In this document: positions 7,626 through 34,100 of the stretch, piece by piece
Layout of the letters: the number at the start of each line of letters is the position of its first letter
Position numbering within the stretch: the first letter of the stretch is position 1
Assembly (NCBI GenBank): GCA_947588755.1
Contig: CANPZB010000015.1
Span: 1 to 34,100 of the forward strand
Reading direction: 5' to 3'
Source of the DNA: Candidatus Gastranaerophilales bacterium
GTDB taxonomy: Bacteria; Cyanobacteriota; Vampirovibrionia; Gastranaerophilales; Gastranaerophilaceae
DNA: 34,100 bases
Translations under genes and position numbers: made by a program
Notes under the pieces: model-generated
Database searches by the model: none
Seen by the model: the letters and a program-made list of their open reading frames with translations, nothing else
What the model was told of the DNA's origin: nothing

Positions 7626-9713
7626 ATGGCAAGAAAAACTCCATTAGAAAAAATCAGAAACATTGGTATTGCCGCACACATAGATGCGGGCAAAACCACT
7701 ACAACCGAACGTATTTTGTTCTACACGGGCAAGACTCATAAAATCGGTGAAGTTCATGACGGTGCTGCCGTAACCGACTTTATGGAACAGGAACGTGAAA
7801 GAGGTATTACAATTCAGTCCGCTGCGGTAACTGCGGAATGGAAAGGACATCAAATTAACATTATTGATACTCCGGGACACGTTGACTTTACTATTGAAGT
7901 TGAACGTTCTTTGCGTGTATTGGACGGTGTTGTTGCCGTATTCTGTGCAGTCGGCGGTGTTCAGTCCCAATCGGAAACTGTTTGGCGTCAGGCTAACAGA
8001 TATGAAGTTCCGAGAATGGTTTTTGTCAATAAAATGGACAGAACCGGTGCAAACTTCTATCGTGTTGTTGACCAGATTAGAAACAGACTCGGAGCTAACG
8101 CTCATCCCATCAGATTACCTATAGGTGCTGAGGACAAATTCCAGGGTCTGGTTGATTTGTTTGAAATGAAAGCTTATATTTACACAAACGATTTAGGTAC
8201 GGATATAAAAGAGGAAGAAATTCCCGCCGATATGGCAGACAAGGCAAAAGAATACAGAGATGCACTTGTTGAAGCCATTGCGGAATGCGATGACGATGTT
8301 ATGATGAAGTACCTTGAAGGCGAAGAAATCTCAATCGAAGAACTTAAAAAAGGCTTGAGAAAAGGTGTTTGCGAAAACAAAATCGTCCCCGTAACTTGCG
8401 GTACGGCATTCAAAAACAAAGGTGTTCAATTACTTTTGGACTCCGTAGTTGAGTTAATGCCTTCACCTGTTGACGTTAAAGCTATTGAAGGTGAACTTGA
8501 AGACGGTACAAGAACCGAAAGACATTCTTCCGACGAAGAACCTTTCTCGGCACTTGCATTTAAGGTTATGACTGACCCCTATGTAGGTCGTTTGACTTTC
8601 TTGAGAATATATTCAGGAAAATTAACTTCCGGTTCTTACGTATTGAACGCAACTAACGGTAAAAAAGAACGTATATCAAGGCTTGTACAAATGTATGCTG
8701 ACCAGAGAATTGAAGAAAACGAAGTATATGCAGGCGATATATGTGCAGCCGTAGGTTTGAAAGATACAACAACAGGCGACACTCTTTGTGATGAAAAAAG
8801 CCCGATTATCTTAGAAAAAATGACCTTCCCCGAACCGGTTATTTCGGTAGCTATTGAGCCTAAAACGAAAGCCGATCAGGACAAAATGGGTATTGCACTT
8901 CAAAAACTTGCGGAAGAAGACCCGTCATTCCGTGTCAAATCCGATACCGAAACAGGTCAGACAATTATATCCGGTATGGGTGAACTTCACCTTGATATTA
9001 TTGTTGACCGTTTGATGAGGGAATTTAAGGTTGACGCGAATGTAGGTAAGCCTCAGGTTGCGTATCGTGAAACAATTCGCGGTAATGCGGATCAGGATTC
9101 CAAATTCATCCGTCAATCAGGTGGTAAAGGTCAGTACGGACACGTTAAAATCAGAATTGCTCCTGCGGATGAAAATGCCGGATTTGTATTTGAAAACAAA
9201 ATCGTCGGCGGTGCCATTCCTAAAGAATATATCGAACCTGCAAGAAAAGGTATGGAAGAAGCACTTGAAGGCGGTATTCTGGCAGGTTTCCCGATGATAG
9301 ACGTAAAAGTTGAACTTTATGACGGTTCGTTCCACGAAGTTGACTCATCGGAAATGGCATTTAAAATAGCAGGTTCAATGGCTATTAAAGAAGGGTGCAG
9401 AAAAGCTAAACCCTGCATACTTGAACCTATGATGAAGGTAGAAATTGAAGTTCCCGAAGAAAACACGGGCGACATAATCGGGGATATATCTTCCCGCCGC
9501 GGACGTGTTGAAGGTATGGAAATCATTGAAGGTACAGGTATTCAAAAAATTAATGCAATAGTACCTCTCGGTGAAATGTTCGGATATGCTACCGACATAC
9601 GTTCAAAAACTCAAGGACGCGGTACTTTCTCAATGGAATTCAAATGCTACGAACAAGTTCCGGCAAATATTGAAAAAGAAATCATTGAGAAATCAGGTGC
9701 AAGCAAAGAATAG
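7626..9713 (+). CDS. fusA: Elongation factor G
   Basis: 695 residues, the family's normal length. Translocation GTPase of the ribosome. The G1 loop [13 protein letters not shown] is at about 17-29, with the switch region [12 protein letters not shown]3 DTPGHVDF and G4 NKMD. Domain II, domain IV (including GGKGQYGHV) and domain V ([18 protein letters not shown]) are all present. SD AAGGAAAA precedes the ATG. It has its own promoter and strong terminator; rpsL, rpsG and tuf are not adjacent, so it lies outside the usual str operon. The sequence looks like a canonical housekeeping EF-G rather than a diverged paralogue. Confidence 0.97.
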
Positions 9714-13645: not shown

Positions 13646-14428
13646 ATGAAAAGGAATTTAAAAATCGCTTTTACTCTGGCAGAAGTTCTAATCACCCTCG
13701 GGATAATTGGTGTTGTTGCGGCAATGACTATGCCGTCATTAATTCAAAAACATCAGGAAAGAGAAACTGTCGTTAAACTAAAGAAATTTTACAGTACAAT
13801 TTCACAAAGTTATCTGTTTGCCGTGCAAGAATACGGAACACCCTCGGAATGGGGAATAACAGGCAGAGATGTAGGAAGTAAAGACAAGAATGAGGAGTCC
13901 TATGCCGCAACAAACGCAATTCTTGTACGTGACAGGCTTTTAAAAAATGTCAAAAAGACCCGTGTCTGTGATAATGCAAAAAACCAAAAAGCTTGCGGGT
14001 TTGCTAATGAAATTTATTTTTTAGACGGTCAAACAAAGGATTCTACAATATCAGGTTCTTCTGCCTTAACGGCTTCAGCAGCTCTGGCTGACGGTAGTTC
14101 TGTGATGTTTATTGCAAATGGTGCAGCCCTAAGTAACAGAGGTCCGGGTGCATTAGCTTATACTGCCGGAATTATATATTATGATATTAACGGGATTAAA
14201 CCGCCCAATACTTACGGAAAAGATTTCTTTTTCTTTTATTTGACTAACCAAAATATTATGCCTTGCGGTACGGAAGATGAAACACTTTATACTTTTAATA
14301 ATAATTGCGTTAACGTCCGCAACCAGGCAGGTGTGGGCTGTACAGCTTGGGTAATTTTTAACGAAAACATGGATTACCTGCATTGTGATGATTTGTCTTG
14401 GAACGGTAAACATAAGTGTTCTGACTAA
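13646..14428 (+). CDS. Type IV prepilin-like protein
   Basis: 260 residues with a normal short leader (MKRNLKIA) and prepilin cleavage before FTLAEVLITLG, with Glu at +5 and Ala instead of Gly at -1. The hydrophobic helix IIGVVAAMTMPSLIQ follows, then a globular domain with about seven cysteines, including a pair around CDNAKNQKAC and others in CGTEDETLYTFNNNC, VGCTAW and the final HKC. Such proteins assemble into type IV pili or pseudopili, or stay as minor pilins. SD AAAGGAGAATAGG. No other pilus gene is adjacent, as is common for scattered pilins in this lineage. The last eight codons recur twice downstream. Confidence 0.9.
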   Translation: MKRNLKIAFTLAEVLITLGIIGVVAAMTMPSLIQKHQERETVVKLKKFYSTISQSYLFAVQEYGTPSEWGITGRDVGSKDKNEESYAATNAILVRDRLLKNVKKTRVCDNAKNQKACGFANEIYFLDGQTKDSTISGSSALTASAALADGSSVMFIANGAALSNRGPGALAYTAGIIYYDINGIKPPNTYGKDFFFFYLTNQNIMPCGTEDETLYTFNNNCVNVRNQAGVGCTAWVIFNENMDYLHCDDLSWNGKHKCSD

Positions 14429-16571: not shown

Positions 16572-17477
16572 ATGAAAAGAGCGGCAATATTTGCACATTA
16601 CGACGAAAATAATATAATACGGGATTACTGTATTTATTATCTGCGAGCGTTAAAAAGTGTTTGTGACAAGGTAATTTTTGTTTCCTGCCGTGAACTGAGT
16701 GATACGGAAAAACAGAAATTAAATTCAATTGCTGATTATGTTATAAGTGAATTTCATAAAGAATACGATTTTGGTTCTTACAAACGCGGGTTTAAATATT
16801 TACTTGAAAACAAAATTCTTGATGATACGGACGAATTGATTTTTGTAAACGACAGTTGTTACGGGCCGTTTTATCCTCTTGAAAATATTTTTACCGCAAT
16901 GGAGAAGGAAAACATTGATTTTTGGGGGATGACAAAGAACAATTTCGGGTACAAAAAATATATTTTTGAAATTTTTGCCAAGCGTCCGCATATTCAGAGT
17001 TATTTTTTGGTTTTTAACAAAAACGTGTTTACGAGCAAAGTTTTTAAAGAATTTATGTTGTCGGTCTGTGAGCAGACGGAAAAAAGACAGGTAATAATAA
17101 ATTATGAAATCGGGTTAAGCGAAAAACTTGTCAGTGCGGGTTTTAAGTACGATGTTTGGGTAAAAGGTTATGAAAATATTAATAATCCTGCTGTTTTAAA
17201 ATGGCGGGATATAATAGTTAAAAATCACATGCCGTTTATGAAAAAGTCGCTAATAAAGCTGAAAAATAACGGTTCCGTGACTATTGCGGGTTATGAAGAT
17301 GTTATTTCGACTTTGGGCTATCCGCTTTCTTTGATGGAGATGCCGCGTCCTGTTAATAATTTTGTTCCTGCTTCGGTAAAATGGTTTATTTACGGGAATT
17401 TAGTGAATTTTCCGTATATTTTTCGAAAACCTTTTACTTTGCTTATAAATAAGGTATTCAAATTTGTTAAAGACTAG
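16572..17477 (+). CDS. RgpF-like rhamnan/glycan synthesis protein
   Basis: 301 residues of the rhamnan synthesis F (RgpF) family. Diagnostic parts are KEYDFGSYKRGFKYL, DELIFVNDSCYGPFYPL, DFWGMTKN and HIQSYFLVFNKNVF, which match the conserved core of RgpF-type glycosyltransferases that extend rhamnose-rich or related surface polysaccharides. It is intracellular or membrane-associated, with no signal peptide. CGGAG precedes the ATG, and an extended -10 (TGTTATAAT) is only 17 bp upstream, so the leader is very short. It stands alone rather than in a polysaccharide cluster; GT2 at 28253 may act in related pathways. Confidence 0.85.
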   Translation: MKRAAIFAHYDENNIIRDYCIYYLRALKSVCDKVIFVSCRELSDTEKQKLNSIADYVISEFHKEYDFGSYKRGFKYLLENKILDDTDELIFVNDSCYGPFYPLENIFTAMEKENIDFWGMTKNNFGYKKYIFEIFAKRPHIQSYFLVFNKNVFTSKVFKEFMLSVCEQTEKRQVIINYEIGLSEKLVSAGFKYDVWVKGYENINNPAVLKWRDIIVKNHMPFMKKSLIKLKNNGSVTIAGYEDVISTLGYPLSLMEMPRPVNNFVPASVKWFIYGNLVNFPYIFRKPFTLLINKVFKFVKD

Positions 17478-17731
17478 GGCGGCGGTGCATGATGTTTAAG
17501 GGTCTTAGAATTTTCGTGGCTAAAATGATTTAAGATACTGAACAAATGCGACGAAATAAGATCCTGAAACAAGTTCAGGATGACATGTGGGAGTTTAGGA
17601 CGACATGGGGTGGTTTCAGCCTTTCTGCCCTCCGCTGCCGTCCGCAAATCCGCAGTTCAGGATGACATGTGGGTTCAGGATGACATGTTGTGGGGGGGGG
17701 GTGATATCCGCTGTAAAAGACTGCCCGAAAA
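17478..17731. repeat. Repeat island 2 with G10 tract
   Basis: No gene. A full REP-like hairpin ATCCTGAA-ACAAG-TTCAGGAT lies at 17561-17581, with half copies near 17656-17664 and 17674-17683, each followed by TGACATG. The CCGTCCGCAAATCCGCAG block (17637-17654) also occurs in island 1. A run of ten G (17692-17701) is followed by TGA and lies about 31 nt past the stop of gene B. Confidence 0.85.
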
Positions 17732-33560: not shown

Positions 33561-33611
33561 AATGTAAAGTTAAAGACTTTTCTTGACAAAACTTAAAGAA
33601 AATGTTAGAAT
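33561..33611. promoter_or_regulatory. Back-to-back promoters sharing their -35 region
   Basis: Plus strand: TTGACA (33583-33588), 17-bp spacer, TAGAAT (33606-33611), directed at the short ORF at 33652. Minus strand: TTGTCA (33589-33584), 17-bp spacer, TACATT (33566-33561), directed at rplI. The two -35 boxes overlap by five bases, so they should compete for polymerase. Confidence 0.65.
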
Positions 33612-33651
33612 TCGTTTGTAAATGGGAATAATAGAAATAGGGGGTCATGAA

Positions 33652-33696
33652 ATGGCAGACGCAGAGATTAAAAACGGACAAGTGGGGGGGGGGTAA
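33652..33696 (+). CDS. Short ORF (14 codons) ended at a G10 tract; possibly a frame-shifted gene start
   Basis: ATG with AGGGGG seven bases upstream and a near-consensus sigma-70 promoter. Product MADAEIKNGQV followed by GGG and TAA. The glycines come from a run of ten G (33684-33693). Adding one G would put the ORF in a frame with no stop from 33693 to the window edge (about 150 codons in all), through repeat island 3. It could be a phase-variable gene, a homopolymer error in an intact gene, a decayed gene or a leader peptide. The start signals are too good to dismiss; the product is unknown. Confidence 0.4.
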   Translation: MADAEIKNGQVGGG

Positions 33697-34100
33697 ACCG
33701 CTCATACCATAGGTTTTGGCGATTTTTTAATTTTTTATTAAGCCCCGAAAATTTGGATTTTCATTCTGTCATCCTGAACCATGATGTCATCCTGAACTTT
33801 GCACATGTCATGGTGACCCCTTTACATGTCATCCTGAACTCGTTTGACTGCTTTTGCCGAAATCTTTTGATTTCGTGCAAAATGTCCCAATGCGGGCAGG
33901 ATCTTAAATATACATTATCGTTGCAAACAAACATTTTGCATAGGCTATGGCGTGGAAGGACATGTGTCCTTGTCACCATGAATGACCATGTCATGGTAAA
34001 CCCTTTACATGTCATCCCCCATGTCATCCTGAACTTGTTTCAGGATCTTATTTCGTGGCATTGGTTCAGTATCTTAATTGTACGAAAGACCCTGAAATGA
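33697..34100. repeat. Repeat island 3 at the right edge
   Basis: Full REP-like hairpin ATCCTGAA-CTTGT-TTCAGGAT at 34026-34046, plus half copies CATCCTGAAC near 33770-33780, 33788-33798 and 33829-33839. A stem CGAAATC-tttt-GATTTCG (33858-33875) lies inside TTTTGC/GCAAAA arms. The final bases 34084-34100 match the first half of the ACCCTGAAATGA hairpin seen at 692-712, so the window stops in the middle of a repeat. An open frame from 33753 to the edge is a translation of repeats (VILNLFQDL). Confidence 0.85.

Follow-up and report, generated by a model that had tools for sequence, protein, structure and literature searches.

The right edge of contig C15 from this Candidatus Gastranaerophilales genome raises the question of whether a gene can be switched on and off there by the length of a homopolymer tract and, if so, which gene. 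The Gastranaerophilales are non-photosynthetic Cyanobacteriota, and the window analyzed here is a stretch of 34,100 nucleotides (C15:1-34100) whose last base is also the end of the contig. On the plus strand, a promoter matching 11 of 12 consensus positions (TTGACA-N17-TAGAAT, 33583-33611) and a Shine-Dalgarno (SD) sequence (GGGGG, 33640-33644) precede an ATG at 33652, from which a leader ORF (33652-33696) encodes MADAEIKNGQVGGG and then reaches TAA at 33694-33696, just after a run of ten G (33684-33693). The preliminary description had reported the same promoter, SD, ATG, MADAEIKNGQV, G10 and stop, and each was found in place. Because the tract falls after the start codon and ahead of the remaining leader sequence, a one-base change in the window copy switches what is read: the assembled G10 form (OFF) gives a product of 14 amino acids, and G11 (ON) opens the frame to 34098. 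That a change in tract length would switch the leader frame follows from the sequence.

A frame scan showed that the remainder of the leader ORF in this +1 (ON) frame (33694-34100, plus strand) consists of dispersed repeats and closes with TGA at 34098-34100. Its first stop ends 407 bases past the tract, where 407 bases are left. An eleventh G indeed opens a long frame, as proposed earlier, and the accompanying claim that this frame is stop-free to the window edge was off by one codon. The frame also ends without any domain, the outcome that had been named as speaking against a phase-variable gene; yet by comparison with the other copies described below, a leader stop is expected just before a separate prepilin ORF.

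The segment at 33578-33760 recurs dozens of times at ~85-97% identity in this genome (1.83 Mb, 89 contigs), and many contigs terminate within this head repeat. The promoter of the 25 type A heads that have one shows TAGAAT with a spacer of 17 in 16 cases and TATAAT with a spacer of 16 in nine; the search pattern for this count included the ATG, which makes it no test of ATG conservation, and the copies themselves show the ATG by eye. Type B heads share sequence with type A from the tract onward, and in a third type the sense strand carries a C tract, after which comes GAGTCTGTAAACCC. One head of this third type lies at the left edge of the window, where a minus-strand leader ORF (718-1178, ATG at 1178-1176, +1-frame stop at 718 by frame scan) carries a C10 tract (1135-1144) that leaves it OFF. 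Downstream on the same strand are the SD module AGAAAGGA (638-645) and a prepilin with a repeat-coded leader that is cut by the window edge (3-629). As a separate observation, a second motif, FTLAEGATHV, stands ~20 residues before FTLAEVL in the prepilins at 158-218 of the window (minus strand) and at L013, L026, L030 and L039, and these doubled FTLAE motifs look like leader duplication.

A census of 38 cassettes found 22 G10, eight G9, four C10, one C11 and one G6 tract, as well as two interrupted tracts. Paralogous tracts within the genome thus have lengths of 9, 10 and 11, among them the G9, G10, C10 and C11 relatives of the right-edge tract, and the ON register is assembled in a single cassette, the C11 of L017. 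The right-edge head had no match in phage and plasmid collections, and a pattern scan gave none in viral contigs and one in genome contigs, in Luteimonas. An Rfam search of the head returned no match, a tRNA search found none, and its predicted RNA folding is nothing special (z -0.91). Poly-G tracts occur elsewhere too. A further G10 lies at 17692-17701 of the window, just past the ORF at 16572-17477 and near ATGTCATCCTGAAC-type repeats, with neither a leader ORF nor a prepilin assigned to it. At L229 (G000 contig C18, 1-14000), a cluster resembling those for surface-polysaccharide synthesis, with ORFs that look by eye like methyltransferases, aminotransferases and glycosyltransferases, has several poly-G tracts within the ends of ORFs or close to them (e.g. 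..SGGGAIAGV, ..SGGGQCEPV) and perhaps includes more phase-variable genes.

What the heads precede is apparent from copies with enough downstream sequence, in which a prepilin (FTLAEVLITLGIIGVVAA or close to it) follows in the same direction 287-1114 bp past the tract. These are N_methyl class III leaders, FTLAE with a hydrophobic helix, and the right-edge contig ends before such a gene would appear. The exception is a second head at L030 (tract at 9150, reverse strand), for which the prepilin motif is absent from the 2.5 kb scanned. Genome-wide there are 104 matches to the N_methyl prepilin family (PF07963) in 1.83 Mb, together with one prepilin peptidase (PF01478) and four assembly ATPase (PF00437, T2SSE) matches over cut-off. 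A tract of at least eight G or C lies within 1.4 kb upstream of 30 of the 104 prepilins, one of which (C16:32848) owes it to a divergent neighbor, and a further 21 are within 1.4 kb of an upstream contig end; simple arithmetic from 92 tracts gives a chance expectation of ~7. The prepilin at 13646-14428 of the window has no G/C tract within 1.4 kb upstream. The parts that follow FTLAE in the L019, L021 and L026 prepilins match PF20318 (DUF6613), below cut-off for L026, and this part may be a pilin body of the lineage.

For the right-edge copy itself, comparison of 22 contig ends (21 reported) pointed to contig C83, whose start equals the last 72 bases of the window and continues with an SD at 127 and FTLAE at 547. 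Since the shared 72 bases are repeat sequence, C83 is a candidate continuation past 34100 and not proof of one. The +1 stop of the window copy lies in the repeat context ACCCTGAAATGA, as do the stops of L012, L015, L017 and L039, each of which is followed by a prepilin SD. From this shared context, a prepilin SD is predicted ~23-109 nt to the right of 34100, followed by the prepilin.

The frame between tract and prepilin was compared in 25 of 28 rows, leaving out L013 (head of a divergent neighbor), L019 (direct fusion) and L224 (no AGAAAGGA). In all 25 pairs, at least 60% of the stretch between the tract and the prepilin SD (AGAAAGGA) is open in the ON frame, whose stop falls 23-109 nt upstream of that SD; the prepilin itself is a separate ORF. 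Of the remaining two frames, one reaches 60% in none of the pairs and the other in four of the 25. The ON frame is kept open though the intervening repeats differ among copies, and this conservation therefore points to selection for translation. The right-edge observation is more than chance, as the whole head recurs and so does the layout of an OFF G10 with an open +1 frame across differing downstream repeats.

The conserved ON frame raises the question of how the leader could act on a separate downstream gene. In the mechanism we propose, slipped-strand changes in the tract would switch the leader between the 14-residue product and a long one encoded by the repeats. With the leader ON, ribosomes translating the +1 frame would cover terminator-like hairpins formed by the repeats, allowing transcription to reach the prepilin, and in the OFF state the uncovered RNA would lead to early termination before it. 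The window copy carries such a hairpin, ATCCTGAACTTGTTTCAGGAT with a T-rich tail (34026-34046, plus strand), past the OFF stop and inside the ON frame, the arrangement known from the repeat-bearing leader ORF of Pil1 in Streptococcus gallolyticus. Elements of this class occur in 21 of the 25 leader ORFs and are absent from four. In total, leader ORFs hold 34 terminator-like hairpins vs 3.2 (sd 1.6) in shuffles, and prepilin leaders none vs 2.1, counts in which the repeat copies are not independent. The hairpins are weak, usually with three G-C pairs and interrupted T tails.

Hairpins with T-rich tails arise from forward copies of the dispersed repeats, which run forward in leader ORFs (71 vs 4) and reversed in prepilin leaders (63 vs 3). 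Read in reverse, the long repeat unit meets a stop in each of the three frames, so this orientation may partly reflect stop avoidance. Rho-dependent polarity was rejected as a source of the termination: the genome, 99.83% complete, has no Rho, its best TIGR00767 match reaching 50 bits against a cut-off of 509, and the available portion of one report likewise describes cyanobacteria as lacking Rho (PMC13289151).

Translational coupling is the second possibility. Ribosomes that end the ON leader would reinitiate at, or aid, the prepilin SD 23-109 nt further on, and transcription would be unaffected. In its favor, the leader stop and the prepilin SD are separated by a constantly short distance in 25 of 25 pairs, but for coupling the longest of these gaps, at 109 nt, are rather wide. 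Coupling also seems unneeded, because the prepilin SD is predicted to be unpaired with or without leader cover (mean unpaired 0.80 vs 0.83, 21 cassettes), and we consider it unlikely. The same values do not support sequestration of the prepilin ribosome-binding site by inverse-complement repeats. On these folding predictions, prepilins with their own accessible SD could be expressed whatever the leader state.

Relatives provided a wider view of the tracts. Head DNA was matched in four of 59 genomes searched, including its own, and the matches in the other three were short and weak. In the relative G021, whose head sequence is unrelated but has the same role of placing a tract before a prepilin, 69 of 84 prepilins have a tract of at least eight G or C within 800 bp upstream (median 99 bp, ~3.5 expected), out of 93 poly-G/C tracts in all. 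A strict pilin motif kept 49 tract-prepilin pairs, vs 69 with the looser count, and in 48 of these 49 the frame is open from tract to FTLAE, placing the tract inside the prepilin leader. All 48 open pairs need a tract length of 2 mod 3 for a continuous ORF, and 42 of the 48 have no ATG between tract and FTLAE. Their OFF tracts are 37 G10, five C10 and one G9, and their ON tracts three G11 and two C11. ATG, tract and prepilin are joined in seven of 29 other relatives, each judged from a single tract. Across 36 genomes, the number of prepilins correlates with the G9 count (Spearman 0.67), and the pilin-rich relatives G007, G020 and G026 have few G9 tracts. By these sequence comparisons, what is particular to this genome is the head DNA and not the principle.

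These tract lengths also bear on whether the switch moves at all. The tract might be stable at 10, with a low level of ON product arising when polymerase or ribosomes slip on the run of G, and the narrow range of lengths fits this, since G10 makes up 37 of the 41 G tracts among the open pairs of G021 and 22 of 38 cassettes in the window genome. We regard this as improbable, given that both genomes also contain G9 and G11/C11 copies and that C tracts serve equally. Still less probable is that the short ORF and its frame are functionless, the head being a promoter-bearing mobile element or repeat scattered through the genome. Such an element would have a high copy number and would break contigs within the repeat, as seen here, but orientation before prepilins is fixed, the ON frame stays open in all 25 pairs although their repeats differ, and the unrelated head sequence of G021 does likewise.

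Direct translational fusion, in which an extra G joins the ATG to the prepilin body in a single ORF like Neisseria opa leaders, describes a layout that does exist: in G021 (48 of 49 strict pairs), in the seven of 29 relatives mentioned above (one tract each), and at L019, where the ON product would have 346 amino acids. A continuous ORF of start, tract and surface protein is absent from the window copy, however, where the +1 frame stops at 34098-34100, and 25 other pairs in the genome also stop before a separate prepilin SD, making fusion very unlikely for the right-edge copy, where it is contradicted unless the assembled sequence is in error. The preliminary description was therefore right to expect a G-tract-controlled start with a pilin as its likely target past the edge, given the downstream prepilins of continuing copies and the tracts within relatives' prepilin leaders; its placement of the pilin in the same +1 frame did not survive the stop, and L019 is the only direct tract-prepilin fusion in the genome. 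Least probable of all is a role in pilin exchange, with recombination favored at the transcribed G run by analogy with the G4 that lies near pilE in Neisseria. A G run does lie beside a promoter before a large, repeat-rich pilin family, but a classic G4 has several spaced runs and this is a lone run of 10, some tracts read as C in the sense direction, and a hot spot does not predict the strict frame rule of G021.

We favor a phase-variable leader cistron before a prepilin, with leader translation relieving termination, as the likely nature of the right-edge feature. That it is a phase-variable pilin leader is highly probable, and the attenuation step taken by itself is evenly balanced. Phase variation is supported as anatomy and is unproven as behavior.

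Among known systems, translation-dependent anti-termination as in S. gallolyticus Pil1 appears to fit best. The available portion of that report describes leader-peptide phase variation with attenuation for Pil1 and Pil3, and translation of a longer leader was shown to prevent the terminator hairpin (PMC3894217). As described there, Pil1/Pil3 resemble the window genome in that pilus genes follow a short leader ORF containing a simple repeat, in that a frame change lengthens the product, and in that the prevalent state is the low one (PMC3894217). Pil1/Pil3 differ in that the repeat unit is GCAGA, the hairpin is single and strong (pil1: -18.7 kcal/mol), and the pili are sortase pili encoded at two loci (PMC3894217), whereas the window genome, known from sequence alone, has dozens of loci with G/C homopolymers and type IV-like prepilins, and its hairpins come from dispersed repeats.

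The Neisseria Opa family, according to the parts of two reports available, comprises ~11 genes, each of which carries a repeat of its own where the leader peptide is encoded and goes in or out of frame independently of the others (PMC3960869, PMC3745409). This layout, a family of surface-protein genes with one leader repeat each, matches G021, although Opa uses CTCTT pentamers and outer-membrane proteins in place of the homopolymers and prepilins of the window genome and G021. Unlike in Opa, the tract of the window genome sits in a separate upstream cistron. Poly-G/C phasomes, in which G/C homopolymer tracts switch surface genes, are described in the available text of reports on Campylobacter, Helicobacter canadensis and Neisseria (PMC6321876, PMC2823697, PMC5084427). 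The present tracts resemble these, but in G021 a single family, the prepilins, accounts for most tracts (69 prepilins, 93 tracts). A literature search with thin coverage of subscription journals, including the accessible part of a Melainabacteria paper (PMC5877343), found no report of phase-variable pilins in Gastranaerophilales.

As a form of homopolymer phase variation, the proposed two-cistron pilin leader would be unusual in scale. Single cells may switch individual pilins on or off at random by gain or loss of G. A bolder version, which we hold tentatively and rate slightly short of an even chance, is that each prepilin has an attenuator of its own, dozens in all, set independently by a homopolymer and dependent on translation. 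The repeats would serve both as stop-free coding sequence and as terminators, each cell would make a random draw from ~100 pilins, and the two-cistron layout would be derived from a family-wide system with the tract inside the prepilin leader. If true, the finding would explain the assembly breaks at these loci and the pilin calls that look truncated or frameshifted. It would also mean that members of one bacterial family hold up to ~110 prepilin genes in ~2 Mb genomes, that most prepilins of at least one member, G021, carry their own slippage switch, and that a very large combinatorial system of surface variation exists outside the pathogens in which poly-G phasomes are usual.
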